Source: Sinohyriopsis cumingii
Lineage: Eukaryota > Mollusca > Bivalvia > Unionida > Unionidae
Assembly (NCBI GenBank): GCA_028554795.2
Contig: CM068824.1
Span: forward strand, 157,154,789-157,218,788
Length of the DNA: 64,000 nucleotides
Direction: 5' to 3'
Notes under the pieces: generated by a model
The model's input: only the letters and a program-made list of their open reading frames with translations
Told to the model about the DNA's origin: nothing
Databases searched by the model: none
In this document: in pieces, positions 42,480 through 61,766 of the stretch
Layout: every line of letters starts with the position of its first letter
Position numbering within the stretch: the first letter of the stretch is position 1
Translations under genes and position numbers: made by a program

Positions 42480-42489
42480 TATGTTAATA

Positions 42490-43525: not shown

Positions 43526-43563
43526 GGCCCTTTTCAGGGCCACCCACGTCTCTCGAAAAGAAA
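43526..43563 (+). terminator. Histone-type 3' stem-loop and downstream element
   Basis: AAA precedes GGCCCT-TTTC-AGGGCC (43526-43541), then ACCCA (43542-43546), then GAAAAGAAA at 43555-43563. This is the closest copy to the metazoan histone consensus in stem, loop, flank and spacing. Confidence 0.85.
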
Positions 43564-43762
43564 TACAATTTCAATTGCCAATAACTCAACAAAAAAAATC
43601 AACCCATTTTACCCCTATAGTACGTGTATATGAGTGCGTGAGTGTAGCTTCTTATTTTGAAATCAAAACTCAAAGACACTTACCTTATATAATTAATGTA
43701 TTCTTTTTTCAATAGTTACAATCCAATTCACAATTCACAACAGAACACTTTAGAAAGTACAT

Positions 43763-44212
43763 TCACTTCTTCTGTTTCTTTTTTTTCAATTTCTTCACCG
43801 TCACAGTTTTTTCCTCCTCTTCCTCCTCACTTTCTTCCCTTCTTCTTTTCTTCTCCTGTTTCTTTTTCTTCACCTGGCTGTTTTCTTCCTCTGAAGAATC
43901 CCTCTCTTCTGAAGAATCCCTCTTTTCTTCTGACTCCTCTTGTTTCTTTTTTGGGCAATCTGGAGACCAATGTCCTTTTTCTTTACAATAATAACAGGTA
44001 TATTGACTTTTGTCTTTTCTAGCCCCTGTTTTTCTTTTTTGATGGTCTGGACACTCTGAAGACCAATGCCCTTTCTTTCGACAGATATAGCAAGTATCTT
44101 GACTTTTATCTTGAAAGGAAGGAGAGTAGTCCGTCGGCTGGTCTGAAGAGAATTTTCTAATGACCCCTCGCAAAGCTCTGATGAAACGTTCGATTTGGCT
44201 AGTCTCTTCCAT
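43763..44212 (-). CDS. Double CCHC zinc-knuckle protein
   Basis: 149 aa. Start at MEETSQIERF because the arm copies in B keep MEES at this point (an upstream in-frame ATG at 44260 is possible). Two knuckles fit C-x2-C-x4-H-x4-C: CYICRKKGHWSSEC and CYYCKEKGHWSPDC, so single-stranded nucleic-acid binding is likely. The C-terminal third is alternating acidic and basic (SEEE, KKKK), ending KKLKKKKQKK. Divergent from the polymerase with its own TATATAAAAG. No retroviral gag or protease is nearby, so not a retroelement relic. A role in replication or packaging is inferred. Confidence 0.8.
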   Translation of the reverse strand: MEETSQIERFIRALRGVIRKFSSDQPTDYSPSFQDKSQDTCYICRKKGHWSSECPDHQKRKTGARKDKSQYTCYYCKEKGHWSPDCPKKKQEESEEKRDSSEERDSSEEENSQVKKKKQEKKRRREESEEEEEEKTVTVKKLKKKKQKK

Positions 44213-44262
44213 CGTTGTGCTCGGTTTGAGAGTGAAATGAATAGTGAAAGGACAAGACACAC

Positions 44263-44297
44263 CCTTTTATATACGCTGGTCTGACATGACTATAAAT
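44263..44297. promoter_or_regulatory. Divergent TATA boxes: zinc-knuckle gene and polymerase
   Basis: - strand TATATAAAAGGG (44263-44275) is about 50 bp before the zinc-knuckle ATG. + strand TATAAAT (44291-44297) is about 50 bp before the polymerase ATG. Confidence 0.65.
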
Positions 44298-44344
44298 TAG
44301 TCTATGGTGTTTAAACTTGAGTCATTTGACGTTTTGCACTCAAG

Positions 44345-47300
44345 ATGAAACGATCCTATTCATTCGAGAAGAAAGAAGACGAAAGTAAGAGGCAGAAACG
44401 TGATCTATCGCCTCGTACCAGGGCTGAAGTCTTGGCACAAATTCATGCCAGTGATTTTGAAGAGGACATGAGTGAACCAGAATTTGAACCCTCTAAACAA
44501 AGTTCACCACCCTTAGTCAACCCTGAAAAGTACTATTCCATTCGAGAGACGGAAAAGCGCTCCTCTAGAAAATTTAGAACCACGGCTTACAAATACTCAG
44601 TGAAGTTTAAAGATTTCAAGGCTGAAGTACCGGTAGAGAAAGCAGAAGGGTTCATCACTGGGGTGTGGGATTCTTTGCTCACCACACTCAAGCGACAATG
44701 TCAACCCAAAGAAGACGATCGCTTGAGACTTTCCATACAACACGACGGTTTGAAATCCCCTGTTTGGATCGAGTTTAGCAGACCCGCAGAACTAACTGCT
44801 TCCAAAGTCATGGACAAGATTCAACACGTGCAACAATCTAATGACCAGTTTGACATCACCGATGGAAACGCCACACTGGACATGACCCACGTCTCTCCTC
44901 CTCAAGGGACCGGACAACGCAATAAGGTGTTACTGGTGAACGACCTTCTCAGCACCAAAAAGAGTCTCGTCCAAATTCACAATTCTCAAGACCAGATGTG
45001 TTTAGCCCGTGCCATCGTGGTGGGACGAACCTATGCCAACAAGAACGACACGACAGAATGGAAAAGAGCCTGGAAAACTATTCGACAATCGGACCGAGCC
45101 AAACTACGAAACGAAGCAGAACTCCTGTTACAACAAACCGACTTGCTCAAAGACACACCCTGTGGCATTCCAGAGATGCAAAAATTGCAAGATGCCCTAG
45201 CTCCACGCTACACCTTGAAAGTGCACCCTCAAGAAGTGCGCGGACCTCTGTTGTTTCGAGGGAAAGACTTTAAGGACGGAAAATACATTCATGTCTATTA
45301 TCACGATGACCATTTCGATACCATTACCAGTATCATTGCATTTCTGCGATACAGTTATTACTGTGAGAAATGTGACTGTGGCTATAACAATCGAGAGCTA
45401 CACAAACATTGCGGATTGAAATGCTCAGGATGTTTGGCCTCTCCACCCTATCTGAGCGAAGGACAAGAAAGAGTACATTGTCCTGCTTGTCTGCGTACGT
45501 TTGTCAGCCCTGCCTATTACCAACAACATCTCAAGACGCAAGGTTCACAGCAGAAATGTGCTTGTCAACTCCTGAGATTGTGCCCTACGTGTGGACAAGG
45601 CCTACATACCAATAATGCCAAGGCACACGTATGTTCAGGAAAAAAAAATGTCACATTTGTCATCACATCGTGGACTTGGAACACCAATGCTACGTGCAAA
45701 AATACCAACCCGCACCAGAGAAAGATTACGGTCACAAGAAGAAATGCAATTTCATCTTTTTCGATTTCGAATGCATGCAAGAGACCGGTATTCACATTCC
45801 TAATTTCTTTGTGGCTCATCGAGCGTGCGAGAAGTGCATTCAAGAACCTATTTTCAGTCATTGTCCTCACTGCAGCAAGATTCCCGGAGGGCGTGAAAAA
45901 ATCTTTCGAGGACCGAACACGTTAGCCGATTTTGCCCAATGGGTCTTAGACCCCATCGACAAGACGTGGAGCCAAGAGGACATCGAACGTTACGGAGATT
46001 GTCATCGTCATGCCACAGTGATGGCTCACAATTTCTCCGGATACGATGGACAGTTTCTTTTGAGGTATTATACGGAACAAAGCATCGAACGTCCTAAAGT
46101 GACTTTGAACGGAGCCAAAATCATTTTCATGCAAGTGGGACAAGTGCAGTTTAAAGATTCGATGAGCTATTTGGCCATGCCTTTGAGCCGAATGCCTAAA
46201 ACGTTTGGAATGACAGAAAGGTTATTTTCCTCACTTTTTCAATACGGAAGCCAATCAACACGCCGTTCTACCCCATTTGCCTGAGGCTCACTATTACGAC
46301 CCCGACAACATGCGTACCGAACAACGAGAAGCTTTCTACGCTTGGTACCAGGCTCACGCCTCCGACCCTTTCGACTTTCAGGAAGAAATGTTAAAGTATT
46401 GTCGTTCCGATGTGGACATTTTACGGCGTTGCTGTGGAAAATTTCGAGAACTGTTCATGGAACACGGAGGGGTCGATCCTTTGAAAGAAGCTTGCACCAT
46501 TGCCAAAGCGTGTTCCTTAGTGTACCGGCAACGATTCATGCCTGAAAACACCGTGGCTGTCACCAGTCCTCAACTATGTCAAACGTCAATACTCGGTCGA
46601 ATCCCTACGTTGGTTACATTACTTGTGCGACAAGGAAGACAAATGGATTCAGCATGTCCGCAACGGAGAAGGCGAAAAGACCATCGGAACGTATTCGGTA
46701 GATGGCTGGGACTTAGAAAACCCCAAGATCGTGTACGAGTTTAACGGTTGCTTATTTCACGGATGTCCCGTCTGTTACCCTGATCGTAGCACTAAAAATC
46801 AGTTTTTACAACGAACCATGGAAGACTTGTACCAGGACACTTGTCAGCGACGCCTAAAGTTAGAACAGCAAGGATACCAAGTGGTGGAAATGTGGGAACA
46901 CGAGAACGATCACCGTTTGAAAATCGATCCCGAATTTAAACGCCTCATGGAAAGTTACCAGTTCATGGACCCGCTGAACCCGAGGGATAGTTTGTACGGA
47001 GGTAGAACCAATGCCACCTGTTTGCTGTACCAAGCCGACGAAGAGAAAGGAGAAGAAATCAAATACTTGGACGTGTGTTCGCTGTATCTCTACGTGTGCA
47101 AATATTGTCACTTTACTGTAGGGCACCCGCAATTGTTGACGGAACACATCGACCTGAAAAACATTCGACAATACGAAGGTCTGATCAAGTGTAAAGTTTT
47201 GCCTCCCACGAACTTGTACCATCCCGTGATACCTCACCATTGCCAAGGCAAAATGATGTTTCCTTTGTGCCGTACTTGTGCCGAAACGTGCAACCATGAT

Positions 47301-48362
47301 CAGCCTTGTCAGCACACCCAGGAAGAACGGGCTTTGACGGGGACGTGGGTCAGCGTAGAATTGTTCAAAGCTTTAGACATGGGATATCAACGAAGTGTAC
47401 GAAATTTGTCACTTTCCCAAGACACAACAATACCACAAAGGTGACCCCACGCAGAAAGGCATTTTCGCCGACTACGTGGATGCCTTTTTGAAACTGAAGC
47501 AAGAAGCCAGCGGCTATCCTTCCTGGTGTCACACTTCCGAAGACCAAATAAAATTCAAAGAGAAATACTATGAACAAGAAGGTATTCCTTTAGACCACAT
47601 CGAGAAAAACGAAGGCAGGCGATCGTTTGCCAAAGTGATGTTAAATTGCTTGTGGGGTAAAATGGCACAACGACCGTGTTTACCCAAGACGGAATATTTG
47701 ACAGAACCTTCCCGCTACTTCCAGATGATTCACGACAAAACCAAATACATAAAACACGTGGACGTCGTTCGTGAGGATTCGATCTTTGTCAGTTACGAAG
47801 AAGATCTGGACGTTTACAAGACGACCCTTTTGGAAATGTCATCATTGCGGCTTACGTGACAGCTCATGCTCGCTTAAAATTGTACGAAGCTTTAGAACTG
47901 TTAGGGGAACGCGTCCTGTACTTTGACACGGACAGTTGCATTTACATCTATCACCCGAGTCAACAGCACCCTGACATCGAAGGAGACCGTTTAGGAGTCT
48001 GGACAGACGAGCATCCCGACGACAAGATTCTAAGTTTCGCCAGTGGCGGTCCTAAAAATTACGGTTACGAATACCCGGACAAACAAGGAGAAAGGCACAC
48101 GCAGTGTAAAGTGAAAGGATTGACTCTGAATTATAGTACCAGTCGAGTGGTCAACTTTGGGGTATTGAAAGAAGCCTTGCAGACTGGAAAAGATGAACAC
48201 TTTAAAGTGACCACCTATCAACCCCACAAGATTGTACGTTTACCCACTCATCACATCGTCAGTCGACCCTTGGAAAAAGTCTATCAAATCGTGTACCAGA
48301 AGCGAGTGAGACTTCCCAATCACTTTACGTTGCCGTATGTACACGTCGGTATTGGTATATAA
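44345..48362 (+). pseudogene. POLB: Protein-primed DNA polymerase B, several frameshifts
   Basis: Replicative polymerase of the element. N-terminal ~430 residues include Cys/His clusters (YYCEKCDCGYN, HCPACLRTF, CPTCGQG). Exonuclease motifs FFDFE, HNFSGYDGQF and YCRSDVD follow, then polymerase motifs A (LDVCSLYLY), B (KVMLNCLWGK) and C (YFDTDSC). Frame changes occur at an A8 run (45640-45647) and near 46220, 46580, 47390 and 47850. The gene is therefore non-functional as written, although every catalytic motif survives. The final TAA lies inside the next gene's TATA box. Confidence 0.9.
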
Positions 48363-48365
48363 AAA
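48356..48365 (+). promoter_or_regulatory. TATA box of the BIR gene
   Basis: TATATAAAAA, 56 bp before the ATG. It contains the polymerase stop codon (48360-48362). Confidence 0.65.
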
Positions 48366-48420
48366 GGAACCCTAGGCAAGATCGATAGTTCATTGTGACT
48401 ACCAAGACCAAGCGAACAAG

Positions 48421-49056
48421 ATGAATTCTTTCAGAGAAACACGAAACAAGTTTAGACAGGCACAATTCAAGTGTGGGGCTTCGGAAATGGAATGCGATTG
48501 TGAGCCTTGCGATGGGTACGATGCTGTACGTTGTGACCTTAGCGATGCCGTAAAGCATCGTGGGAACTTTGTTCTCACTACCCCTTTCATGGAAAGTGAT
48601 GCTGTGCGTGTCAAACCTAAGGGATGCGAAAGCGATGCCACTCGTCCTCTTGGACACATTACTGGGTTTCGTTTTAAAGGGGAATGTCGACCTTCACGTT
48701 TACCTCCCTACGGATGTCATCCAGCCCTGAGCAAACTCCTGTTCATGTCACCCAACCCTCATCGAAACGAACCTGTGAAAGACGAATATTCGTTTCCTGT
48801 GCGTTTGTCGGAATACTGCGACTTTGAAAATCGTCTTCAATTGTTCAAAGGAAAATGGCCTAAGTATCTGGAAGGACCGACCCCCGAAGAATTAGCCAGA
48901 GCCGGATTTTTCTACTTGGGCGAAGGAGATAAAGTCAAGTGCTTCAGTTGCGGTGTGTCACTTCACCACTGGGAACCGCAAGATTCGGCCTACGTAGAAC
49001 ATGCTCGATGGTCACCGAATTGTCATTACTTACCCTTAGTGGGACCGAGACATTGA
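48421..49056 (+). CDS. BIR-domain (IAP-like) protein
   Basis: 211 aa, intact. The C-terminal half is a baculovirus IAP repeat: RLQLFKGKWPKYL, then CFSC, 16 residues, His, 6 residues, Cys (residues about 140-205). BIR proteins bind caspases or IAP antagonists and can block apoptosis. The N-terminal ~130 residues are Cys-rich with repeated SDAV/DAVR and match no family I recognise. No RING finger, so ubiquitin-ligase activity is not expected from this protein alone. Probably captured from an animal host (inference). Own TATA box. Confidence 0.85.
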   Translation: MNSFRETRNKFRQAQFKCGASEMECDCEPCDGYDAVRCDLSDAVKHRGNFVLTTPFMESDAVRVKPKGCESDATRPLGHITGFRFKGECRPSRLPPYGCHPALSKLLFMSPNPHRNEPVKDEYSFPVRLSEYCDFENRLQLFKGKWPKYLEGPTPEELARAGFFYLGEGDKVKCFSCGVSLHHWEPQDSAYVEHARWSPNCHYLPLVGPRH

Positions 49057-49078
49057 AGTAACTTACCATAATCTGTTT

Positions 49079-49522
49079 ATGGATACTTTACAAGAGAACA
49101 TTCGCGCTTTGCCTGTGGAGTTGAGAGAAAGGATTTACCGAGAGCTGGTCAAAATACAAGTGAAACGTAAAGAACAATTGCATCCGTTACGTCACCGGTG
49201 TTTGAACCACTGATACCTGAATGCTATACAAGGACTGATTGAGTTGAAAGTGTTCCATTGGACAGACATTGATCAACGACCCCCTGGTTTTAAAAAGGAA
49301 TGGTTTGGTATGGATAATTCTATCTACTACATTGTAAACGTACTGGATCCAATTCCAGAGGAAGAGTTAACGAATTACGCAATGTCGAGTTAGTGAAAGA
49401 GGAAACTTCTGAACGAATTGTAACGTGTAGATTGGTGTTTAAACGATTTAGATTCGACAATGAATTAAAACCATGTCTGTGCAAACAGTACATGTCTTGT
49501 GTCAGACAAAAGAGGATTTAGC
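49079..49522 (+). pseudogene. F-box-like gene, first tandem copy, broken
   Basis: Duplicate of 49534-50025, beginning MDTLQENIRALPVELRERIY. TGA at 49211-49213 where the second copy has TGG, and the second half has diverged with further breaks. Confidence 0.7.
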
Positions 49523-49533
49523 ATGACCTATTC

Positions 49534-50025
49534 ATGGATACTTTACAAGAGAACATTCGTGCTTTGCCTGTGGAGCTGAGAGAACGCATTTACCGAGAGC
49601 TGGTCAAAATACAAGTCAAACGTAAAGAACAGTTGCATCCGTTACGCCACCAGATCTTTAACCACTGGTACCTGAATGGTATAAGAGGACTGATTCGTCA
49701 GAAATTGTTTCAGTGGTCATTCCTTGTTGAACACTTTCAGTTAGTGAATGAACTAAACGTTCGTAATTTTGGTTACTTCGAGATTCACCTACTGCAACGT
49801 ATTGAGGAAGACGAGTTAAAGGATTACCGACATATTTTACGTGGAATCTGCTTAGCGGAAGACGATACATCTAGACAAACTCTGACGTTTCGGTTACAGT
49901 ATGCAAGATTTAGATTCCCTACTGGAGAACGAAGATGTCTAGTTAGAAATTACCTGTATTTCTTCCGAAACAAAGAGACTATAAAATCAGGCTGCCATGC
50001 CACGGATTATGTCACATGTTATTGA
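49534..50025 (+). CDS. F-box-like protein, second tandem copy
   Basis: 163 aa, open. The N-terminus IRALPVELRERIYRELVKIQ fits the LPxEL...I...L start of an F-box, which would dock on Skp1 of SCF ubiquitin ligases. The remainder has no recognised substrate-binding repeats. Overlaps the next ORF by 29 bp in another frame. The F-box call rests on a short motif. A plain helical protein is the alternative. Confidence 0.5.
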   Translation: MDTLQENIRALPVELRERIYRELVKIQVKRKEQLHPLRHQIFNHWYLNGIRGLIRQKLFQWSFLVEHFQLVNELNVRNFGYFEIHLLQRIEEDELKDYRHILRGICLAEDDTSRQTLTFRLQYARFRFPTGERRCLVRNYLYFFRNKETIKSGCHATDYVTCY

Positions 50026-50636
50026 ACAGATTCCGTGGAAGGAACTCAATGACCATATTCAAACCGTGGATCATTACCATCGATTATTACAAGAACTGTA
50101 TCCATTCAATTTGGGTCGACAAGTGGTGTCTGTCTTAGTGACTTGTTTTCTGGGATTTCGTTTACCAGCCGATTCCTTGTGGACTCTTTACGATCAGTAC
50201 TTACCACCCAGTGGCCTTAAATGGTCACGAAAGACTCCTTTTGCTCAAAGCCTTGCGTTTTCATCTGGATACTTCTCGACCTCAACAGGAAAAAAGATTC
50301 GTCAACTTTTAGCTACCGAAGACGTGTATGACGATGTGTGTGTAGCTTGTGACTTACACCCTCATTGGACAGATGTTCGTGATTGGAAAAAGGGGGGTTT
50401 TGAGGCTTGGACCCAAGAAGTGGCCCAGTATGCACAAGAGTTGTTCAAGGAAAAAACTTACTTTTCAACCTGTGTTAGTGACAGTGCCAGAAGAACCCGT
50501 CACCGATAACAACCACTCGCTTCAGGACAGGACTGTCCTGGACATTCCTGAAAGGTCATTCCGGGAGGACACTTCTGTGACAATACCTCATGTAGAGACT
50601 GTCAGAACATTACACACTGTCACTAGGACATCTTAG
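49997..50636 (+). pseudogene. Unknown gene, frameshifted near its 3' end
   Basis: Open for 170 codons from 49997 (a second Met lies four codons in), with LYPFNLGRQVVSVLVTCFLG and DWKKGGFEAWTQEVAQYAQE. Around 50450-50456 (A6 run) the downstream coding-like sequence with LVTVPEEPVTDNN continues in another frame to 50636. No family assigned. AATAAA follows at 50766. Confidence 0.5.
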
Positions 50637-50765
50637 TGACCAAACACATGTTTTACAGAGACTTGTTTCTATTTCACTTTGATCGTTTTCATTTGCCTTT
50701 TATCGTTGTACGTAACTGTTTGACTTTGATGTATTTTAGTCTTTCGTATTTATTTTTGAAACCTC

Positions 50766-50771
50766 AATAAA
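50766..50771 (+). terminator. Poly(A) signal before the ATPase gene
   Basis: AATAAA followed by GTGTCCTG, 130 bp after the preceding frame ends. Confidence 0.6.
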
Positions 50772-50786
50772 CGTGTCCTGAAAAAG

Positions 50787-50794
50787 TATATAAA
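50787..50794 (+). promoter_or_regulatory. TATA box of packaging ATPase
   Basis: TATATAAA, 47 bp before the ATG at 50841. Confidence 0.65.
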
Positions 50795-50840
50795 CTCTTG
50801 TCTTGTCTGTTTTTGTGTCACAAGTGACATTCCTGACACT

Positions 50841-51569
50841 ATGGTTACCTCTGCTGTCTCTGCTCCCTCTTCCTCCACTTTCAAAGTCATCGACGAACAC
50901 TTAGATCGTGCCAGTTGGGAGGCTTTGTATCTTCGCCATCCCTTTAACATGCTCATTGCTGGACCTAGCGGTTCAGGCAAAACCGAATTCGTCAAACGTT
51001 TGATCGAACATAAACATCATTTGATCGATCGGCCACCTCAGCGGATCGTGTGGTGTTACAAAGAGTGGCAATCGGCGTACAGCCTCTTGCGAGAAAGTCA
51101 AGGCGATTCCATCGTGTTTGTGGAAGGCATTCCTAAAGAAGACGACGGCATCGTCTCTGACTCCCGTCAAACCCATTTGGTCATTTTTGACGACATGTTA
51201 GGAGAAGACGAAGAAGAAATTAAACTGTGGTTCACGCGCAAAGGGCATCATCGTAATGCCAGTGTCGTTTACATCACCCAAAATTTGTTTCAACAAAGTA
51301 AAGCCCATCGCACCATCAGTCTCAATGCGCATTACGTGGTCTTGTTTCAAAGCCCTCGAGATAAATCGCAAGTGCAAGTCTTAGCCAAACAGTTAGGGAT
51401 GCCTTAGCTGACTCAGGCGTACGACGATGCCACTCAAACTCCACACGCCTATTTACTCGTCGATTTGAAACCTATGACCCCCGAGGATTTGCGATTTCGT
51501 ACCCACTTGTTTCACCACTGGTGCCAAGACGGAGGGCCTGTCCTGTACACGTCTCCGTCCTCGACTTAA
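50841..51569 (+). pseudogene. ATP: FtsK/HerA-type genome-packaging ATPase, one stop
   Basis: Would drive DNA into the capsid. Walker A AGPSGSGKT at residues 40-48, Walker B HLVIFDDM at 112-119, then YITQNLF as the sensor-like segment. TAG at 51405-51407 interrupts it after 188 codons. The same frame continues with coding character to TAA at 51567-51569. The length of 242 codons is normal for Polinton ATPases. Confidence 0.88.
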
Positions 51570-51589
51570 TTTCACTCCACAAAAAAATC

Positions 51590-51597
51590 TATAAAAA
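51590..51597 (+). promoter_or_regulatory. TATA box of basic protein gene
   Basis: TATAAAAA, 40 bp before the ATG at 51637. Confidence 0.6.
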
Positions 51598-51636
51598 CCT
51601 CAGACCCTTTTCGTCTGTCTCACACACATTTTGAAC

Positions 51637-52630: not shown

Positions 52631-52993
52631 ATGTCACCCTCCAGAAAACATCCCTCTTCTAAACAACCCCAAGGAAAGAAAAGGAAAGGACTGCCTCCTC
52701 GTTTACTCAAACATGGGGACATGTTATCTGTCCTGTCCAAAACTTCTCCACCTCTATGAATAAAACTCATTCAATCAGCCTCCAAAGAGGTCATCGATAC
52801 CGTGTGCGAATGCTGCTTGAACGTCTTGAAAGGCACGATCCCTTTGTCCAAACACCAGAAACAATGTTTAGGCAAACATCGTCACGTTCTTCGCCAAATG
52901 GTTCAAAAGAAAATTCCCATTCGTCAAAAGAAGAAGATGTTGGTCCAAAGTGGAGGCATTTTAGCCCTCTTGTTAGGTCCCTTACTGAAATGA
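52631..52993 (+). pseudogene. Small basic pX-like protein, one stop
   Basis: 121-codon frame with TGA at 52757-52759. The N-terminal part is basic (GKKRKGLPPRLLK). The C-terminal part has GTIPLSKHQKQCL, KKIPIRQKKKMLVQ and a hydrophobic GGILALLLGPLLK end, the layout of the small Polinton/adintovirus core peptide likened to adenovirus pX (family knowledge, moderate certainty). The overlapping longer frame 52756-53103 is judged a shadow. Confidence 0.6.
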
Positions 52994-53084
52994 ATCTTGG
53001 GTACCATGTTGGGAGGACTGGTGGGAGCAAGATAAAAAGGCCCTCGGAAGTCCCAAGATCTCAGAATCGACCCCTGACAACCCC

Positions 53085-53791
53085 ATGGAAGGACGAAAAC
53101 TAGCTTTAGTACCTTACAAACGATGGATGGAATACCATCGTTGGCAAGAACAACGCACCCCGCATTTACCTCCCAATCCCCATTTGAGCGAGATGTCCCA
53201 GTTACAACACGAATTGCAGTCCTTGATGGATCGCCAAAATTTGTCCGAAACAGAAAAATCGCAAAAGTACGGTCAACTCTTGCAACGACTGCAACTCTTT
53301 CACCAGAAAGCTTTAGACGAAACAGCTCTACCCACTCTGAAAGATTTTAAGACCTTGATGAAAAGTGTCCAACACCATCATCACTACCACCACCACCACC
53401 ACTACTACCATCCCCAGGGGTCACCAGAGATGCTACCTCACGAAGACCTGAGGAAGAAGAGATGCGAGAAGTGTTTCAAACACCGTCAGCAGCTGCCATT
53501 TCGAGTAAGATTGCAGCATCCTTGTTGACCCCGTCCTCCACACCCCAACGAGAAGAAATGAAAGCTTGGGTTAAAAAGATGATATCCACTCCTCCTTCGA
53601 CAGAAGTGAAAAAGAAAGAAGGGAAACCAGAAGTGAAAAAAGAAAAGAAGACCAAAGCCATTCCATTGCCACCTCCACCACCACTACCTTCGACTTCTAC
53701 TCCCGTAGCCCATCGGACACGTAAATCCGTTTCTAAACCACCCTTTCGTCCCACCCAAAGTAGCATCACCGAAGAGTGGGTGACTTATTAA
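53085..53791 (+). pseudogene. Conserved Polinton protein upstream of integrase, frameshifted
   Basis: Starts RKLALVPYKRWMEYHRW, then a helical region, a His/Tyr run (about 53375-53410), a frame change near 53440-53460, and a second part with PSAAAISSKIAASLLTP, a Pro run and a basic end. Seen as one gene because both halves are coding-like and abut. Role unknown, possibly virion-associated. Confidence 0.55.
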
Positions 53792-53811
53792 CACACAAAC
53801 AAACAGAAAAA

Positions 53812-54922
53812 ATGGAAAAAGTCTTAGCCAGCATTTACTACGATCCCTCCCATCCTGCAGGTTACGCAGGAGTTCAAAAATTGTATCGTGCTGCCAAAAT
53901 GCGACTGAAAAGTCTCCGTTTACCTCAAGTGCAACGATGGTTACAAGAACAAGCTACCTACACTTTACACAAACCCATTCGACGCAAGTTTGCCAGAAGT
54001 CGCACCCGAGTGGAAGGCATCGATCATCAATGGCAAGCCGATTTAGCCGATGTCTCTCATTTGGCCAGCTACAATCGTGGCTACAAATATTTGTTTTGTG
54101 TCATCGACGTCTTTTCCAAATTTGCCTGGGTCGTGCCCTTGACTTCCAAATCGAGCAGCGAGTTAGTGCGAGCCCTGCAACGGGTGTTGAAACAAAGCGG
54201 TCGTCACCCTCTTCGATGGCAAACGGACAAAGGTACCGAATTTCTGAACCAAGCTTTCCAGAAAGAATTAAAGGAACGTGACATTCATTTTTTTTACCAC
54301 CGAGAATCCCGAAACCAAAGCCAGCATCGTGGAACGTTTTCAACGCACGTTGAAAGAACGCATGTGGAAATATTTTACGCATCACCACACTCTGAAGTAC
54401 ATCGACATCTTACCGCACCTGGTGCAAGCGTACAACCAATCTTACCATCGAAGCATTGGACGTGCCCCGCAAGACGTGACTCCCTACAACGAAGTGTTGG
54501 TGTTTGAGCGCCTGTTTGGTACGTCCCCGACGAGGGCTGTCCCCAAGAAAAGTGGAGTGTTGGCCGTAGGAGATTGGGTGCGCATTGGCAAAACCAAACG
54601 CACTTTCGACAAAGGTTACTTACCTAACTGGACGACCGAATTGTTTCGTGTCACTGGACGAGTGCATGGCCGTCATCCTGCCGTCTATAAATTGGAAGAC
54701 ATGAACGGAGAAGTGCTGAAAGGAACGTTTTATTTGCCCGAGTTACAACGTGTCACCAAAAAAGAAGACGACGTGTACGACATCGAAAGCATTCTCGAAC
54801 GCAGAACCCGTAAGGTGGGCAAACGACGTGTCAAAGAAGTCAAAGTACGTTGGAAAGGATATCCACCCAGTTTTGATTCTTGGATCGACGCTTCGCAAGT
54901 CATCGACTATAAAAAGAAGTGA
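53812..54922 (+). pseudogene. INT: Retroviral-type integrase with chromodomain, one frameshift
   Basis: Inserts element DNA into the genome. Start at MEKVLASIYYDPSHPAGY. An N-terminal helical domain is followed by the rve core with Asp (HQWQADLADVS), Asp (QTDKGTEFL) and Glu (ASIVERFQRTLKER), and a C-terminal chromodomain with VKVRWKGYPPSFDSWI. The DDE triad is intact but split by a frame change at a T8 run (54288-54295), a place where sequencing error is also possible. Confidence 0.9.
54908..54916 (+). promoter_or_regulatory. TATA box inside integrase C-terminal codons
   Basis: TATAAAAAG encodes the final Tyr-Lys-Lys of integrase and precedes the membrane-protein gene. TATAAAAAG is also present in the B copy. 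Confidence 0.5.
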
Positions 54923-54927
54923 CCGTC

Positions 54928-55331
54928 TTGCCCTTTCACACAGACGCAGCTACGTCGACCACTCCTTCACCCAGTTCTTCTGTGCAAGATTTACAAAAAC
55001 AACCCTTGTGGGTGTGGTGTGGAGAACGTGTGCCTAAAACGCAAATCGTCTTTTCTGCCAAATCTTCGTGGTGTATTGTGTCATCGGGGCAGCCATTGCC
55101 AATTTGAGTGTGCAACAAGGAGACAAACAATTGTGGACCATTTTATTGAGCAGTTGCATCGGTTACCTGCTTCCCAATCCCTCCCTGAAATTCTCCTCGA
55201 ACGGGAACCTTGTGTCCAGTGCCAGTGCCAGTCACCACTCCAATAACAACAACAACAACCCCATTTTGGGCGGAGACGCGCCTCTGACGTCCAGTAACCC
55301 CTCGGACAGCCACAGAACTCTGGAATTATGA
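54928..55331 (+). pseudogene. Small membrane protein, start lost and frameshifted (C)
   Basis: Homologue of 10788-11192. The start codon position reads TTG, and a T missing from the run near 55048-55055 changes frame. The hydrophobic segment VYCVIGAAIANLS and Asn/Ser-rich tail with an (AAC)n run remain in the second frame. Its stop overlaps the minor capsid ATG. Confidence 0.6.
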
Positions 55332-56241
55332 GTCACCAAAACCAATTTTACTTAACCTTACCCAATGACAGTTCCATGGAGGTGTTTCCCAACAACATGT
55401 TGTGCTGTTACACGACCAAATTACCTCAGGCCATCCAGTTAGATCACGAAGCCCATTGGGAAGTGGCTTTGGTAGAAATGATTCACCCTACACAGATCCA
55501 AAACATCACTGAAAAACAAAACACTTTTGAGGTCGAAATCCTGAACCAGCAATTGCAAGAAACCATGAATGAAATGGGGTTTTCAGGGGACACAAGACCA
55601 TCCAACAATTCACCCTTCAATATCTACACCTTGAAAATTCCGCCAGGGTTTTATTTTAGTGGCCAACATTTGGTGGACACCATTGCTTCCAGGTTCGACT
55701 TAGCCTTTGGCAAAGCCCTGAACAGAATTAAAAAATGTGTCACCCTGGAGTACCATAAAGTGGCTCGTCGCTTACTGATGAAATTTCAGGATACCCAAAC
55801 GTTGTCCATCAGTTTTAATCGTGACTTGTTTGATATTTTAGGTGGAGACACAAAAATGGCTCCAAATTTTAAACCGAAGATCAACAGCAATATGGAATTT
55901 TACAAGTTTTTTCGATTCCCTGTAGAACTGAACCAAGGACTGAATTTGATGTTTGTGTACTCCGATGTGGTGGAGTATAACGTGGTGGGACACACCTCCG
56001 TGCCGTTACTGCGTGTCATTCCTTTCAAAGTGGATAGTACCACGACCAGTGACGAGGAAGGTGGAAACACTTACTACGTTCACGGCGAATTTGTACATCC
56101 TCACTATTTGCCCGTCAGTAAGTCGTATTTGGACAGTGTCAACATTGCTATAAAAGGAGATCTGGGACAAAATATTCTATCCACCAAGGAAAAGTCACGG
56201 TGAAACTCCATTTTCGAAAACGGTTCTCTCACGACTCGTAA
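55328..56241 (+). pseudogene. mCP: Minor capsid (penton-like) protein, late frameshift
   Basis: Single-jelly-roll vertex protein of the Polinton capsid. Open for 291 codons from QFYLTLPNDSSMEVFP through VVEYNVVGHTSVPLLRVIPF. A frame change near 56175 brings an early TGA, while the sequence matching the intact C-terminus of the B copy continues in another frame to 56241. Loss affects only the last ~20 residues. Confidence 0.85.
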
Positions 56242-56244
56242 GAC

Positions 56245-56688
56245 ATGTATCCAGTGTATCGAGGGGTTGCTCGACAGCGAGGACACGGTTTAGGAGATAT
56301 GCTAAAATCGGCCTTTCGTTCGGTGGCCCCGGTGTTGAAACCGATCGTGACACGAGGATTGCACGCCTTGAAAGATGCGGCACTGACGCAAGGCAAAGAA
56401 TTTCTCCAAAATGTCATCATCGACAAACAAAACCCCAAAGAAGCCTTCATGAGGGCAGGCAAAAATGTCTTGCTGCAAACGGGTAAAGACCTTTTGGGCC
56501 GACGAGAAACACCTATAAATGCCCTGCACGCTACCGAGTCAGGCATTCCTACTTCCCTGACGCCACATCAAGGACAAGGCAGAAAGAGACGACGAAGAAA
56601 ACACCCTTTTACCAGACTTCACACGTCTAAAGCTAGAAAGACAAAGAAAAGAAGAACCGTTCGAGACTTAGACGTTTTCGATTATTGA
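56245..56688 (+). CDS. pVI-like minor virion protein candidate
   Basis: 147 aa, open. Starts YPVYRGVARQRGHGLGDML, followed by amphipathic helices (LKSAFRSVAPVLKPIV) and a strongly basic C-terminal third (GRKRRRRKHP, KARKTKKRR). Layout and position between minor and major capsid genes fit the Polinton protein compared with adenovirus pVI. RGHGLG could be a protease site (inference). Missing from Polinton B by deletion. Confidence 0.65.
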   Translation: MYPVYRGVARQRGHGLGDMLKSAFRSVAPVLKPIVTRGLHALKDAALTQGKEFLQNVIIDKQNPKEAFMRAGKNVLLQTGKDLLGRRETPINALHATESGIPTSLTPHQGQGRKRRRRKHPFTRLHTSKARKTKKRRTVRDLDVFDY

Positions 56689-56711
56689 GAAACAGCAACA
56701 ACAAAAAAAAG

Positions 56712-58034
56712 ATGATGCACCGAGAGTCTTACGCTTGTTCCAAGTCGGAACTGGATCCGTTTGCCATGCCACCCACCATGATGACGATGCAAGAATCCCA
56801 GTGGGTGGAATTTCATCCCGTCTCCTCACTGACGGATTCAGCTCCCATCGAGTTTGAAATCAAAGGACAGCCCGAAGATTACATCGATCTGAATAGCAGT
56901 TACTTGTACCTGAAAGTCAAAGTTCTAGATAAGACAGGAGGTGATATAGACACTGAAGCAGTAGCTCCCGTCAACAATTTCATGCATTCCTTGTTCAGTG
57001 GAATGGACTTGTACTTGAATAACAAACTAGTCAGTAGCAGCATGGATACTTACCCTTATCGTGCCTACCTGGAAAATCTCTTGACGTACGGAATAGACGC
57101 CAAGAACACTCATCTCAATGCCTGTGTGGTATGGGAAGCTGACGATGCAGACCAGTTTGAAGAATTGGAAACTGATACAAAGGATAAAACTAAATCAACA
57201 AATGAGGGATTTCTAGAACGAAGAAACAGAATTATGGGACTTAACAAAAGTTTAGAAGTGATGGATCGTTTGCATTTGGACATGTGGTTACAAGAGAAAT
57301 ATTTGCTAAACGGGGTGGATGTCCGCCTGAGACTGAATCGTAGCAGTACCGCTTTCCATTTATTGGCTGATACTGACGATTACAAAACCAAAATCCAAGA
57401 AGCCAGACTCTACGTACGACGCGTGGAAGTGTTGCCCAAAGTGGGAAACGACATTAGTCAGACGTTGAGCAGAACGACCGCAAAGTATCCGATCCGACGT
57501 GTGGAAGTGAAAACTTTCACTATTCCTGCTGGACAGCGATCCATGATCGAAGATCATCTGTTCCAAGGATAGCTCCCCAAACGTTTAATCGTTGGTATGG
57601 TCGAGAATGAAGCCTTCAACGGAGCTATGGCTAAAAATCCTTTCTACTTTCGACACTTCAACGTGTCCAAGATCGAAGTCAGTCGCGATGGCAAAACCTT
57701 GTGTACCCGACCTTTCGAACCTGACTTTGAGAAGAAGAATTACTTGAGATCGTACTTGTGCCTGTACGAAGCCACCGGACAGTTAGGAACCAACACCAGT
57801 CACGGCATTACGTACGATGATTATGCAGGAGGTTATGCTTTGTGGGCTTTTGATTTCACTCCGGACCAAGGCAGCGACGAGGGTCATTTCCACCCTATAA
57901 AATCCGGCCAGATTCGTGTGGAAATTCAGTTTGCAAAACGAGACCCTGATAAAACGGTGAACGTCATCCTGTATGCAGAATTCGATAATACCATAGAAAT
58001 CAACAGTTTGAGAGAAGTCATTCTAGACTATTAG
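56712..58034 (+). pseudogene. MCP: Major capsid protein (double jelly roll), one stop
   Basis: 440-codon frame. ATG at 56712 is chosen because the upstream open codons have only TTG. Hallmarks are LDPFAMPPTMMTMQESQWVE, PIEFEIKGQPEDYIDLNSSY and a C-terminal FAKRDPDKTVNVILYAEFDN. It forms the hexagonal faces of the predicted virion. TAG at 57570-57572 interrupts it after residue 286, and the frame then continues unbroken to 58034. Confidence 0.9.
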
Positions 58035-58039
58035 AAGCC

Positions 58040-58525
58040 ATGGAAGACTGTTATCCCTCTTTACCTAGTGGAGAAACTTTGAAGATGGAATATGAGGAGA
58101 CCGTGGAAAAAGAAGAAGTTATCATGATGAAGTCAAGATGGCCAGAACAAGAAGCCCATTTAGTCTCCTGTTTTGCCAAACACTTGGTCGAAAAAATGAC
58201 GGAATTGATCAAGAAAGATTGCTATGGATGTCAAAACGATCATCCCAGTCAAATTCAACACGATAAATGCCTGATGCTGAGTCAAGAAGAAAAATTGGAC
58301 GAGTATCTGGACGAAGCTTGGAGTCTCATCTCGGACGAAGTCGTGTTGCATCAGTGGTATAAAGACTTGCGTGAACATTCTTGTCCACCATTAACCACTC
58401 AAGAGATCCATCGTATCGAAGCTCTCCTGAATCAGAGTGAGGAGACGAAACGAAGAAACGGTTATTTGTCAGACATTTTCAAACAAAAAGTCAGGATCGA
58501 ATTGATGACTTATTATTACCTGTGA
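58040..58525 (+). CDS. Conserved Polinton Cys/His protein (C)
   Basis: 161 aa, intact, starting 5 bp after the capsid stop. The cluster CYGCQNDHPSQIQHDKC is conserved with the B copy at 9189-9695, as are LDEAWSLISD and the C-terminal IELMTYYYL. Function unknown. Conservation in both elements implies selection. Confidence 0.78.
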   Translation: MEDCYPSLPSGETLKMEYEETVEKEEVIMMKSRWPEQEAHLVSCFAKHLVEKMTELIKKDCYGCQNDHPSQIQHDKCLMLSQEEKLDEYLDEAWSLISDEVVLHQWYKDLREHSCPPLTTQEIHRIEALLNQSEETKRRNGYLSDIFKQKVRIELMTYYYL

Positions 58526-58543
58526 AGAAGAAAAAAACAAAAC

Positions 58544-59104
58544 ATGGATACCTGGGAACTTTATTACCTTTTGAACCACAGTTCGTATACGGCTTCTTGG
58601 AATCCTGTCGTCTGTGCTAAAGGTGAACTCCCTCATCGCAAACCTCAAGACCATCTAGCTTACGTGATCAGCACGGACGACAGTCATCTCCCAGGAACCC
58701 ACTGGGTAGCCGTTTACTTTCCTCAAGAAGGATGTGTGGAATATTTCGATTCGTACGGATTGCCCCCTTTGGAAGACGATATCATTGACTTTATGAGAAG
58801 AAATGCTCAGACCACCCGATTCAATAATGTAAAATTACAAGGCACAGATTCCTTGGTGTGTGGACAATATTGTGTGTATTTTCTGCATCATCGCCGCCTG
58901 GGCTATTCCTTAGAACATTTAGTGACTCATTTTGATCCTCGTTCTTCTTCAAGAAACGATGTGAAAGTAGATCAATGGTTTTGTGACCATTATGCTTATC
59001 TTTTGTCTCAAGCTAGGAAACGTAGTGTCCATCAATGGCCTAATGACTTCCAATAGTGGAAATCACAATTTCATTCACAACGTTGTCAGCCCTGTTTAAA
59101 GTAG
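58544..59104 (+). pseudogene. PRO: Adenain-type protease, stop near the end
   Basis: Catalytic residues as in the B copy: His53, Asp69, Gln99, Cys106. TAG at 59054-59056 removes the last 16 residues, where the B copy has CAG. The frame then continues to the shared stop at 59102-59104. It may still fold, as the active-site core is complete. Confidence 0.85.
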
Positions 59105-59213
59105 AGTGTTAATTGAAAAAAAATGTTTGAGATTTGAAAAAAATGTTTGATGTTATATTGTTGGATTATTGTTAAAAATGTTATAGTTGTTGGTTAGTGT
59201 TAAGTGAATTTTG

Positions 59214-59219
59214 AATAAA
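59214..59219 (+). terminator. Poly(A) signal of protease/virion transcript (C)
   Basis: AATAAA then TGTTGTGTTTTG, 110 bp after the protease stop. No stem-loop is present here. Confidence 0.7.
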
Positions 59220-59347
59220 ACAAATGTTGTGTTTTGAAAAAATGCCTTTGTCTTTTGTTTGGCTATAAGAATGTTGATTCATGCTCTTTGACTTCTCTCT
59301 ATCTCTCTCATGACACTCATTGATCGTTGCGGCTCGAAAACCGTAGA

Positions 59348-59375
59348 GGGATGTTTTCCTTCACGTCCGCGCTTT
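59348..59375 (+). promoter_or_regulatory. Shared promoter motif P1
   Basis: GGGATGTTTTCCTTCACG then TCCGCGCTTT, 63 bp before ATG 59439, followed by TTTAAG in the TATA position. Confidence 0.7.
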
Positions 59376-59438
59376 GACTTTAAGAACCGGGGTAATTTCC
59401 AGTCTAACCATCCATTGTCGACTCATCCTGCTACGAAG

Positions 59439-59810
59439 ATGTGCTCCAAACTAGCTAAACTAAACGAAGCCTACGTGAATTTACATAGGGTCAGACACAG
59501 TCTGATACCGAAGCCAGAAGAGATAGAGAATGTGAAAATATTAAAAGTCACTGAAGACCTGATAGAAGAGCTCTTCAGAGAAGAAGTGAACAGGGAGAAA
59601 GAAGAATGGACAGAGAAGTACAGACTTCAGAGACAGCATCAACAGCAACAACAACAACAACAGCAGCAGCAGCAGCAGCAGCAACCTGAACCTGACAGAG
59701 GCTTTGTCGATTGTCGTATCGACACCAAAGAGTTCTTCTTCTCGTTCCGAGGAAGCAGACCTGTCGCCAGAAAGTCTATCCTCAGAGGACATCGCATTCT
59801 TAGAAACTAA
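59439..59810 (+). CDS. Q-rich terminal gene of Polinton C
   Basis: 123 aa. ATG at MCSKLAKLNEAYVNLHRV, conserved with B (7829-8272). Upstream codons are open but hold the promoter motif, so are not used. Helical N-terminal half, a Gln run of about 17 (CAA/CAG, longer than in B), then PEPDRGFVD and IDTKEFFFSF. P1 upstream, stem-loop 41 bp after the stop. Function unknown. Confidence 0.72.
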   Translation: MCSKLAKLNEAYVNLHRVRHSLIPKPEEIENVKILKVTEDLIEELFREEVNREKEEWTEKYRLQRQHQQQQQQQQQQQQQQQPEPDRGFVDCRIDTKEFFFSFRGSRPVARKSILRGHRILRN

Positions 59811-59851
59811 AAGATTGCCATAGCAAACAAAAAAAAAAAAGAAAAAAAAAG

Positions 59852-59890
59852 AGCCCTTTTCAGGGCTACCCAATACTCTAGAAAAGAAAT
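59852..59890 (+). terminator. Histone-type 3' stem-loop of Q-rich gene
   Basis: AGCCCT-TTTC-AGGGCT (59852-59867), ACCCA (59868-59872), then CTCTAGAAAAGAAAT. An A-rich run lies just upstream. Confidence 0.83.
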
Positions 59891-60223
59891 AACAATCGAT
59901 TTGCCAATGTGTGTAGGTAGAGTAGTGTGAATATAAACACTGACTCTTTTTTATAGTGTGAGTGTATGTATTTTTGTATAGGATTGTGTGTTTGTAAGTG
60001 CTCACGTACGTTTGTGTGGATAGTAGATTAAGATCATGTTTTTTTTGCTGTTTGAGGTGTGGGGAGAGTAGATTTGGGGATGGATTGGATTGCTTTGCTT
60101 ATGTGAGTAGTATATTATTTGTTTAATAAAATGTTTTAGAATAGTGATGGGTAGTATAAAAAAAGTGAGTGAGTGTTTCTTTTAGGTCCGCGCGTTGTTA
60201 GGTAAGATCAATTTTGTTTTAGG

Positions 60224-60260
60224 GGGATGTTTTCCTTCACGTCCGCGCTTTTAGTATAAA
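60224..60260 (+). promoter_or_regulatory. Shared promoter motif P2 with TATA
   Basis: GGGATGTTTTCCTTCACG then TCCGCGCTTT, and TATAAA at 60255-60260, 51 bp before ATG 60311. A lone TCCGCGCG box lies at about 60187. Confidence 0.72.
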
Positions 60261-60310
60261 TTGAAACTCGCTGGGCAGTCTAGTTACCCTGTTCATTCGT
60301 TGAGAAGACA

Positions 60311-60604
60311 ATGAATACCAGAATTGTAAAACTGCTAGAACTCCAGATGCACCTGGAATATGCCAGGCGCATACTAAATGAACTGGCCGCGGAGGCCATT
60401 GTCGAAGAGGCAAGGATGAAAGAGGAGGAGGAAAGAAGAAAAAAAGAAGAGGAAAAGGAGAGAGGAAATTTCAGAATCCCAGAGACAGAAAATTGGGATT
60501 CTGAAGCCACTTATCCAGCCTCTGCACTCCCAAGAAGAAAGATAAAAGGAGAATGGGGAAGAAGATGTGTGTGTGGTGCCAGGCATGGAAGGTGCCATCA
60601 TTAA
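60311..60604 (+). CDS. Small charged coiled-coil gene
   Basis: 97 aa. Amphipathic helix with KLLELQMHLEYARRILNEL, then RMKEEEERRKKEEEKE, and a C-terminus with CVCGARHGRCHH that could bind metal. Complete transcription signals: P2, TATA, and a stem-loop 30 bp after the stop. Middle member of a run of three similar modules. No family recognised. Confidence 0.65.
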   Translation: MNTRIVKLLELQMHLEYARRILNELAAEAIVEEARMKEEEERRKKEEEKERGNFRIPETENWDSEATYPASALPRRKIKGEWGRRCVCGARHGRCHH

Positions 60605-60633
60605 CCAGGTGTCACTGGAGTTCAAAAACAAAC

Positions 60634-60670
60634 AGCCCTTTTCAGGGCTACCCAAACCTTTAGAAAAGAA
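60634..60670 (+). terminator. Histone-type 3' stem-loop of coiled-coil gene
   Basis: AGCCCT-TTTC-AGGGCT (60634-60649), ACCCA (60650-60654), then TTTAGAAAAGAAAT. The following 20 bp (AACAATCGATTTGCCA) match the copy at 59852. Confidence 0.83.
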
Positions 60671-60896
60671 ATAACAATCGATTTGCCAAAGTGTGTATGT
60701 AGCGTAGTGTGAATATAAACACTGACTCTTTTTTTATAGTGTTTGTGTTTGAGTTTGTAAGCGCTGATGTAGGTTGGTGTGGATAGTAAATTTGGGTTTC
60801 ATTTTAATGCTTTGCGTGTGTAAATAGTAGATTAGGGGTTTGTTTATTGATGCTTCACGTATGTGGATAGTAGATCATATGAAATGAGAAAAGTAG

Positions 60897-60925
60897 GGGA
60901 TGTTTTCCATCACGTCCGCGCGTTT
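60897..60925 (+). promoter_or_regulatory. Shared promoter motif P3
   Basis: GGGATGTTTTCCATCACG then TCCGCGCG. Duplicated 65 bp downstream as P4. Confidence 0.65.
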
Positions 60926-60961
60926 TAAGTGATAATCTAGGTAATATCAATTTTGTTCTGG

Positions 60962-60997
60962 GGGATGTTTTCCATCACGTCCGCGCTTTCGTATAAG
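60962..60997 (+). promoter_or_regulatory. Shared promoter motif P4 with TATA
   Basis: Same core as P3 with TCCGCGCTTT, then TATAAG at 60992-60997, 40 bp before ATG 61038. Confidence 0.7.
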
Positions 60998-61037
60998 AAC
61001 CCACAGTATTCGTCGTTCAAACCATTCTACAGAGAAG

Positions 61038-61386
61038 ATGGCTTCAAACCACTTCGATAAAATGTAAACATTGCAAGACGTCCTGGACAATTTGGGCATG
61101 ATGGAACAAATGCTAGTGGGCTAAACGAAGATCACTATTCTTATAGTCCCCATCGAGTGAAGATGGAGATTAACAACTTACGAAAAGTAAAGGACATGAT
61201 AAGTGATGTGCTGAAAGAAATAAAGGAGGAAAAGGAAGATGAATAGGAAAGGATAAGGATAAGAGCATGGAATGAAAAAATTGAAAAAGAAGAAGAAAAT
61301 GAGAAGAGGAAGAAAGAAGAGGAGGAGAAGAAGAAGAAAGAAGAAAAAAGGAAGAAAAGAATGAAAAGAAGAGAAAGAGTGTAGGA
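61038..61386 (+). pseudogene. Third charged coiled-coil gene, broken
   Basis: Begins MASNHFDKM then TAA at codon 10. Further coding-like pieces in other frames include INNLRKVKDMISDVLKEIKE, a TAG at 61244, and an E/K-rich end stopping at 61384-61386. The end part matches the relic in Polinton A. The promoter motif and stem-loop remain. Confidence 0.6.
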
Positions 61387-61440
61387 CAGAAAATAAGAAG
61401 TTGGTGGAGAAATAGAAGAAATTAGAAGAAGAAGAAGAAA

Positions 61441-61766
61441 CCCAAAGGCCCTTTTCAGGGCCACTCCTATTTCTCGAAAGGAGAATGACTTTCCATTGCC
61501 TACCCTTTTTTTTCTTTAAAAAATAGGGTCCCAACCCTATTCCATTTCCCCTTGAGGCTCAACAGGCCCAAACGTCTTTTTATTCCTATGTTAAATTCCA
61601 TTGAGGCTAAACTTGCCCAGGGTTTTTTGCCCATGTTAAATTTCCATTGAGGCTAAACTTGCCCAGGGTGGTTAATGTTAAATTTCCATTGAGGCTAAAC
61701 TTGCCCGGGGGGGGGGGGTCTGTAATGCTAATTCCCATTGAGGCTAAACTAACCCCCTATACTACT
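61441..61766 (-). repeat. Right terminal inverted repeat of C
   Basis: Inverted match to 42148-42479, differing mainly in the poly-G/C run and a few bases. Confidence 0.92.
61447..61462 (+). terminator. Histone-type 3' stem-loop inside right TIR
   Basis: GGCCCT-TTTC-AGGGCC followed by ACTCC and TCTCGAAAGGAGA. It faces outward like its TIR partner at 42456-42471. Confidence 0.8.

Follow-up and report, generated by a model that had tools for sequence, protein, structure and literature searches.

Histone-type 3′-end signals at both termini, and histone-type promoter elements at one, in a Polinton family of Sinohyriopsis cumingii

We analysed a 64,000-nucleotide stretch of the genome of the bivalve Sinohyriopsis cumingii (contig CM068824.1, positions 157,154,789 to 157,218,788; hereafter the window), which contains a Polinton that we refer to as element C. 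In this Polinton family, the small genes located at either end are very probably expressed through the host pathway for replication-dependent histone genes, judging from their 3′ signals, from the placement of these signals behind stop codons, from their conservation and from their match to the histone genes of the host. A first-pass annotation of the window had read Polinton genes generally as ending in histone-type stem-loops processed by host factors. Our results support this reading for the terminal genes only; for these genes the case is stronger than it had been in that annotation, because three right-end genes also carry promoter words of host histone genes.

Results

Histone-type stem-loops follow the small genes at both ends of element C

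The first-pass annotation listed six stem-loops in the window, each with a 6-bp stem and the loop TTTC, and all six lie where it placed them and on the strands it gave (Table 1). They are the only perfect hairpins of TTTC-loop form on either strand of the window; 60 dinucleotide-preserving shuffles of the window contained a mean of 0.05 and a maximum of 1. Three of the six (43526, 59852 and 60634) are followed by ACCCA, as had been described, and the purine block expected about 10–15 bp on, GAAAAG or, at 61447, GAAAGG, starts 13–14 nt behind all six stems. A purine-rich histone downstream element (HDE) thus stands at the distance seen in histone genes behind 6/6 stem-loops. We scored the stem-loops with Rfam RF00032 (Histone3), the covariance model of the histone 3′ stem-loop (curated gathering score, 34 bits), a check proposed in the first-pass annotation. 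The scores lay far above background, with the matches at 43521+, 42431− and 61442+ at or above the gathering score, though the other three copies fell below it.

Five of the stem-loops belong to element C. The assignment of the sixth, at 469, had to be corrected: read from its upstream sequence and strand, it appears to mark the right terminus of another element that is only partial. The range given earlier for the feature, 43526–61462, also proved too narrow, as it omits the left-end stem-loop at 42456, which is part of element C as well. Each of the five stem-loops of element C stands behind a small terminal gene: two of these genes, L1 (encoded on the minus strand) and L2, are at the left end, and three, R1, R2 and R3, at the right end. 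A scan of the window for the hairpin gave no perfect copy behind any middle gene. Since the inner edges of the terminal inverted repeats fall at the stem-loops of the outermost genes, the repeats hold the 3′ processing regions of L1 and R3. The first stem pair is A-U in R1 and R2 versus G-C in L1, L2 and R3. This swap is the sole two-sided change on which we relied and it splits classes of site rather than copies, so that the case rests on conservation and position.

The 3′ signals recur across the genome and are conserved

We searched the genome of the window (2.9 Gb, 1138 contigs) with the RF00032 model and scored 75 of 589,472 first-look candidates, all 75 of which passed the cut-off, the best with 45.6 bits. 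Forty-five of the 75 scored loci were retrieved with their flanks, and the site counts given here refer to the window plus these 45 loci, which together contain 111 stem-loop sites. All 45 retrieved loci matched the terminal regions of element C, and none of them gave an H3 or H4 match by tblastn. According to the match lists, left-end loci mostly carry L1 and L2, and right-end loci mostly carry R1, R2 and R3.

The position shortly after a stop codon, which had been described for the window, extends to most of these sites: an open reading frame (ORF) of at least 60 aa ends at most 150 nt before the stem-loop in 89 of the 111 sites, and at most 60 nt before it in 82 of these 89. Such an ORF precedes 28 of 30 L1 sites (63–80 aa, ending 7–24 nt upstream), 21 of 28 L2 sites (20 of them at 21–27 nt), 10 of 12 R1 sites (9 at 26–41 nt), 11 of 16 R2 sites (8 at 25–36 nt), 17 of 23 R3 sites (15–82 nt) and both unassigned sites.

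Conservation was measured as identity to the window copy, omitting the stem-loop that had brought in each locus, which left R3 with three usable sites and no value. Identity in the stem-loop was 0.994 for L1 (11 sites), 0.969 for L2 (20 sites), 0.957 for R1 (16 sites) and 0.974 for R2 (17 sites), and lower in the 55 nt before it (0.823, 0.873, 0.766 and 0.870, respectively). An identical stem-loop was found in 9 of the 16 other R1 sites, the rest showing substitutions or alignment gaps, and in 12 of the 17 other R2 sites. Identity in the HDE was 0.886 for L1 and 0.908 for L2; the values for R1 and R2 are listed in Table 1.

The signals match those of the host histone genes

The histone genes of the host are arranged in tandem, with one unit about every 8.3 kb and many copies of the unit (locus L155; contigs C310, C531, C561 and others). 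The named H1 proteins nearest to that of the host carry the names of Mytilus, Saccostrea and Crassostrea, which points to a mollusc and probably a bivalve. One unit (L155) has the order H3-H4-H2B-H2A-H1, all on the same strand, and the stem-loops of these five genes, from a single repeat unit, scored 35.0–39.4 bits with RF00032; the best element copies in the genome outscore them. The host HDE reads CTAGAAAAG in H3, H4, H2B and H1, starting 11–12 nt behind the stem, and CCCGAAAAG in H2A. The HDE word of R1, CTAGAAAAG, is identical to that of host H3, H4, H2B and H1, while the corresponding words are CTCGAAAAG in L1, L2 and the copy at 469, TTAGAAAAG in R2 and CTCGAAAGG in R3.

The promoters of the host unit contain the word GATGTTTTC(C/A)ATCACGTCCGCGC upstream of H2B and H1, and the word TTCTTTTAGGTCCGCGCG upstream of H4. 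We found the H1/H2B-type word, with C(A/T)TCACG, upstream of R1, R2 and R3 (twice in the latter) and the H4-type word upstream of R2. The 24-mer common to R3 and the host H2B promoter and the 21-mer common to R2 and the host H4 promoter were each reached in 0 of 200 shuffles, and the 13-mer common to R1 and histone promoters in 5 of 200. Allowing up to three mismatches, the H1/H2B-type motif occurs 68 times in 20 of the 46 sources (the window and the 45 loci); 51 occurrences have a stem-loop no more than 700 nt downstream and 63 have one no more than 800 nt downstream, four are farther away, and one, a minus-strand match in the middle block of the window, has no downstream stem-loop. The H4-type motif occurs 16 times in 16 sources, 14 times within 700 nt upstream of a stem-loop. 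Identity in the promoter elements is 0.892–0.985, compared to 0.840–0.937 in their flanks.

Genome-wide, the exact H1/H2B-type motif occurs 30,558 times (0 for the reversed-pattern control), and a promoter core followed by a stem-loop core at 455–485 nt occurs 12,196 times (control, 0), both being counts of sites and not of intact elements. The sequenced host unit adds nothing to the 12,196 pairs, because its H2B has this distance at 498 nt and its H1 lacks that stem-loop core. These numbers imply that this single mollusc genome harbours right ends of Polintons by the thousand. We take the promoter motif to resemble the H4 site II bound by HiNF-P, and the elements are probably of the HINFP/NPAT class. 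Passages of PMC5706932 describe HiNF-P as binding H4 promoters and recruiting NPAT, and histone 3′ ends as being made by SLBP and the U7 small nuclear ribonucleoprotein (snRNP).

Poly(A) signals differ between the protease gene and the terminal genes

The replication and structural genes form a middle block that ends with the protease gene. An AATAAA signal behind this gene is kept in 9 of 10 copies, whereas only 5 of 17 copies have AATAAA behind the R1 stem-loop, and in the window the first 400 nt after the L1, L2, R2 and R3 stem-loops are free of A(A/T)TAAA. As far as sequence can tell, this contrast favours, but does not prove, the existence of two gene classes.

Observations that weigh against the histone pathway

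Several observations do not favour expression of the terminal genes through the histone pathway. Three of the six window stem-loops (RF00032 matches at 464+, 60629+ and 59847+) score below the gathering score, and 22 of the 111 sites lack an ORF of 60 aa that stops in the 150 nt preceding the stem-loop. Identity is only 0.473 in the five bases behind the L1 stem, 0.680 and 0.550 in the five bases before the stem of L2 and R1, respectively, and 0.714 in the R2 spacer. The coding stretch of L2 (0.944) is nearly as conserved as its stem-loop, and the L2 HDE is conserved no better than this coding stretch or the DNA farther downstream (0.914). Agreement between copies also partly reflects shared descent, since L1 and R3 lie inside the inverted repeats and R1 and R2 are alike behind the HDE. 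On the gene strand, L1 and L2 share at most an 11-mer with histone promoters, a length reached in at least 13 of 200 shuffles, like five middle genes, and the first promoter element of R3 (0.892) is hardly more conserved than its flanks (0.882 and 0.851). Absence of AATAAA is not diagnostic, because the stem-loop of host H4 is itself followed by AATAAA, at distances of 22 and 77 nt.

Further points of this kind concern the host factors. A profile search for SLBP with PF15247 gave 0 matches, but the controls also gave nothing. A match to the U7 model RF00066 at E 0.27, i.e. at chance level, was rejected, its sequence being without an HDE complement. A pattern that combined a complement of the HDE with the Sm site of U7 matched the genome once (candidate U7 gene G000:C13:13576118), and so did its reversed control. 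The 5′ part of this candidate, behind which a weak hairpin is possible, forms 14 consecutive pairs with the host H3 HDE (−21.7 kcal/mol, reached by 0 of 4000 random 30-mers). Pairing with the five Polinton HDEs is modest (−8.9 to −13.5 kcal/mol, reached by 13.4 to 0.9% of random 30-mers), and the energy obtained with the host H2A HDE is reached by 25.9% of random 30-mers.

Element C and the products of its terminal genes

Element C is a Polinton. Its target duplication GGCGGT is found at 42142–42147 and 61767–61772, and Pfam analyses revealed a family-B polymerase (PF03175, 45.1 bits) in one of three pieces, an rve integrase (PF00665, 55.9 bits) with a chromo domain (PF00385, 33.6 bits) and an A32-type ATPase (PF04665, 33.9 bits). 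The protease has no Pfam match of its own, and some of its homologues bear PF00770 (adenain-type). The ORFs at 55–58.5 kb gave no Pfam match, to a double jelly-roll capsid protein or otherwise. The element also contains a gene for a protein with a BIR (inhibitor of apoptosis) domain at 48421–49053 (Pfam, 81.1 bits) and, between L2 and the polymerase region on the opposite strand, one for a CCHC zinc-knuckle protein (PF00098, two stretches) at 43766–44212, minus strand. Elsewhere in the window, at 3038–14578, a long inverted repeat (2405 bp at 100% and 823 bp at 98%) surrounds Polinton-related sequence.

Table 1. Coordinates of element C, its terminal genes and their regulatory signals in the window.
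Feature	Positions	Strand	Details
R3-type stem-loop, apparent right end of a separate, partial element	469..484	+	RF00032 32.2 bits, below gathering score; HDE at 494–505
Polinton element C	42148..61766	+	19,619 bp; inverted repeats of ~333 bp and 6-bp target duplication
Left terminal inverted repeat	42148..42480	+	333-column match, 96%; inner edge just inside stem-loop and CCAAA of L1
HDE of L1	42434..42445	−	CTCGAAAAGAGA
Stem-loop L1	42456..42471	−	GGCCCTTTTCAGGGCC; RF00032 36.7 bits
Gene L1	42490..42720	−	76-aa small basic protein, arginine cluster at end; stop 18 nt before stem-loop
Gene L2	42941..43495	+	Predicted coiled-coil protein; in-frame stop at 43322–43324 in window copy, intact elsewhere
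Stem-loop L2	43526..43541	+	RF00032 37.3 bits
HDE of L2	43552..43563	+	CTCGAAAAGAAA
AATAAA behind protease gene	59214..59219	+	End of replication/structural gene block
H1/H2B-type promoter element of R1	59350..59372	+	
Gene R1	59439..59810	+	Start 59439 preferred over 59310
Stem-loop R1	59852..59867	+	A-U first pair replaces G-C; RF00032 25.7 bits, below gathering score
HDE of R1	59878..59889	+	CTAGAAAAGAAA; identity 0.990 over 16 other sites
H4-type promoter element of R2	60177..60194	+	Inside 21-mer common to host H4 promoter
H1/H2B-type promoter element of R2	60226..60248	+	
Gene R2	60311..60604	+	97-aa protein
Stem-loop R2	60634..60649	+	A-U first pair; RF00032 31.1 bits, below gathering score
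HDE of R2	60660..60671	+	TTAGAAAAGAAA; identity 0.985 over 17 other sites
Two H2B-type promoter elements of R3	60899–60921, 60964–60986	+	24-mer common to host H2B promoter
Gene R3	61038..61425	+	Lysine/glutamate-rich; window copy frameshifted and interrupted, intact elsewhere
Right terminal inverted repeat	61438..61766	−	Inner edge just inside CCAAA and stem-loop of R3
Stem-loop R3	61447..61462	+	RF00032 35.5 bits
HDE of R3	61473..61484	+	CTCGAAAGGAGA

For R1, the start at 59439 is likelier than that at 59310, because the latter lies upstream of the R1 promoter element. The predicted structure of the L2 product is one long helix with low-confidence ends (mean predicted local distance difference test score, pLDDT, of 67), and the protein has a basic tail. 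Replication-dependent histone genes encode histones, and no histone was among the Pfam matches at E ≤ 1 of L1, L2, R1 and R2, the four terminal genes covered by the scan. The scanned terminal proteins received no functional assignment from Pfam (L1, L2, R1 and R2) or from PHROGs (L1 and four middle ORFs).

In locus L144, protease-like and R3-like sequence are fused into one ORF of 332 aa whose end lies 23 nt upstream of the R3 stem-loop at 2526, as though this copy had lost R1 and R2. The proteins encoded at the R3 position differ strongly by eye (loci L111, L126 and L144 versus L115 and L129), and the same stem-loop stands behind all of them. Varied proteins before one fixed 3′ end may reflect gene exchange.

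Relatives in sequence collections and in the literature

Twenty relatives of L2, with 58–97% identity to the query, came from a large protein collection. One diverged environmental relative (P0134, available as protein only) extends beyond the usual end of L2, and the 41 nt of the window that span stem-loop, flank and HDE can be fitted to its tail with 2 mismatches, whereas among 300 shuffled proteins the lowest number was 10. Between the usual end and the stem-loop, inspection by eye showed no likeness of the residues. From its protein sequence, this diverged relative appears to keep both the stem-loop and the purine element. Proteins 97% identical to L2 (P0122) and 88% identical to the protease (P0002) of this family come from contigs in the collection that are either host DNA or circulating relatives.

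Queries of IMG/VR with two single proteins, the protease and the integrase, and with a protease alignment of 32 rows yielded no relative. The stem-loop pattern matches 101 IMG/VR stretches, and these were set aside, as none of the 101 continues with AC after the stem. Five of them (L004, L018, L043, L054 and L071) show the same 16-base palindrome behind a run of A and have no AC flank; these palindromes are probably ordinary terminators or chance matches. Three more pattern matches (two to the promoter motif, one to the stem-loop with its flank), one of which sits among phage-like genes, were likewise rejected, having no RF00032 match at E 0.1.

The literature searched, which did not extend to the founding paper on adintoviruses, contains no description of histone-type gene ends or promoters in Polintons/Maverick elements or adintoviruses. 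The word stem-loop is absent from the searched passages, including those of PMC11071296 and PMC11244446 (the latter not searched for the word histone).

Discussion

From the signals described above we infer the following course of RNA processing, factor binding and timing. The nascent transcript of each terminal gene would fold the stem-loop, which host SLBP would bind, while the host U7 snRNP would pair with the purine block. A cut between the stem-loop and the purine block would then release a short mRNA without poly(A), and for R1–R3 the histone-type promoter elements would also place transcription under S-phase control. The middle block (DNA polymerase, ATPase, integrase, structural proteins and protease) would end by its conventional poly(A) signal, so that the element would have two gene classes. 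A possible benefit to the element is that regulatory or DNA-binding proteins would be made while replication factors and nucleotides of the host are present.

The alternative that survives best, which we nevertheless judge improbable, is that fragments of a histone gene cluster were picked up by chance in an ancestor of the element and that the signals hitchhike unused, the transcripts being polyadenylated at cryptic sites. Such a relic would account for the close match of the signals to host histone genes, for the promoter and downstream sequence that the right-end genes share, as duplicates would, and for the broken ORFs in many copies. It fits less well with the long shared words being limited to promoter motif, stem-loop and HDE, with the lack of H3 or H4 coding sequence in the loci and with a stem-loop that is better kept than the DNA preceding it. 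Moreover, R2 combines H4-type and H2B-type elements, unlike any gene of the sequenced host unit, and the diverged relative P0134 appears to keep the 3′ block.

A role of the hairpins at the level of DNA, in replication, packaging or integration and partly inside the terminal inverted repeats, seems to us very improbable. While the L1 and R3 hairpins do lie at the inner edge of these repeats, L2, R1 and R2 lie outside them, about 1.1–1.9 kb from the nearest end of the element; the stem-loops follow stop codons, and loop, flanks and HDE match the histone RNA signal strand-specifically, which a DNA function would not need. Least probable of all are hairpin-dependent 3′ ends of the mimivirus or virophage type, made by virus-encoded enzymes instead of the histone machinery, since, even though Polintons are related to virophages and mimivirus transcripts have palindromic hairpins at their 3′ ends, those hairpins vary in sequence and are not known to have an HDE, whereas here the histone consensus is seen in stem, loop, flanks and purine block alike, and the window scan gave no perfect copy behind any middle gene.

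Expression of the terminal genes through the histone pathway would have consequences beyond element C. We lean towards the wider view that a whole family of animal DNA viruses or transposons runs its terminal genes on the S-phase histone programme of the host, through the 3′ end at both termini and the promoter at one, and its replication and capsid genes on poly(A) ends. To our knowledge, the stem-loop 3′ end in animals is taught as a mark of replication-dependent histone mRNAs alone, and the terminal genes, if so expressed, would provide the first non-histone class of animal histone-type mRNAs. The more than ten thousand such cassettes in one genome could then load host SLBP, U7 and histone promoter factors, thereby linking histone supply and element activity. 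By copying histone gene control in its two halves, a mobile element would illustrate how the genes of a DNA virus can be timed to host DNA synthesis without a cell-cycle switch of the virus itself. The element would also offer natural, highly replicated variants of SLBP and U7 substrates and of histone promoter elements, and its transcripts of this class would escape poly(A)-selected RNA data.

Among known systems, the terminal genes most directly recall replication-dependent histone genes, with which they share the stem-loop and its flanks, the distance to a purine HDE, the short distance from stop to stem and the short length of the genes, as well as, at the right end, the promoter words of host H1, H2B and H4. 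They differ in that L1, L2, R1 and R2 have no histone match, in that the left-end genes lack the promoter words and in that they belong to a mobile element with thousands of copies. The element as a whole resembles Polinton/Maverick elements and adintoviruses in its family-B polymerase, rve integrase with chromo domain, A32-type ATPase, adenain-type protease, inverted repeats and 6-bp target duplication. The hairpin-terminated transcripts of mimiviruses likewise place a hairpin at the 3′ end of viral genes, but these hairpins are variable and not known to have an HDE, whereas the stem-loop and HDE of the element follow the host histone signal. Animal DNA viruses that use the histone system have a further representative in the adomaviruses, whose "Histoid" genes, in passages of PMC11071296, are virus-encoded genes for histone-like proteins; there it is the protein that is histone-like, whereas in element C it is the regulatory signals, attached to proteins without a histone match.

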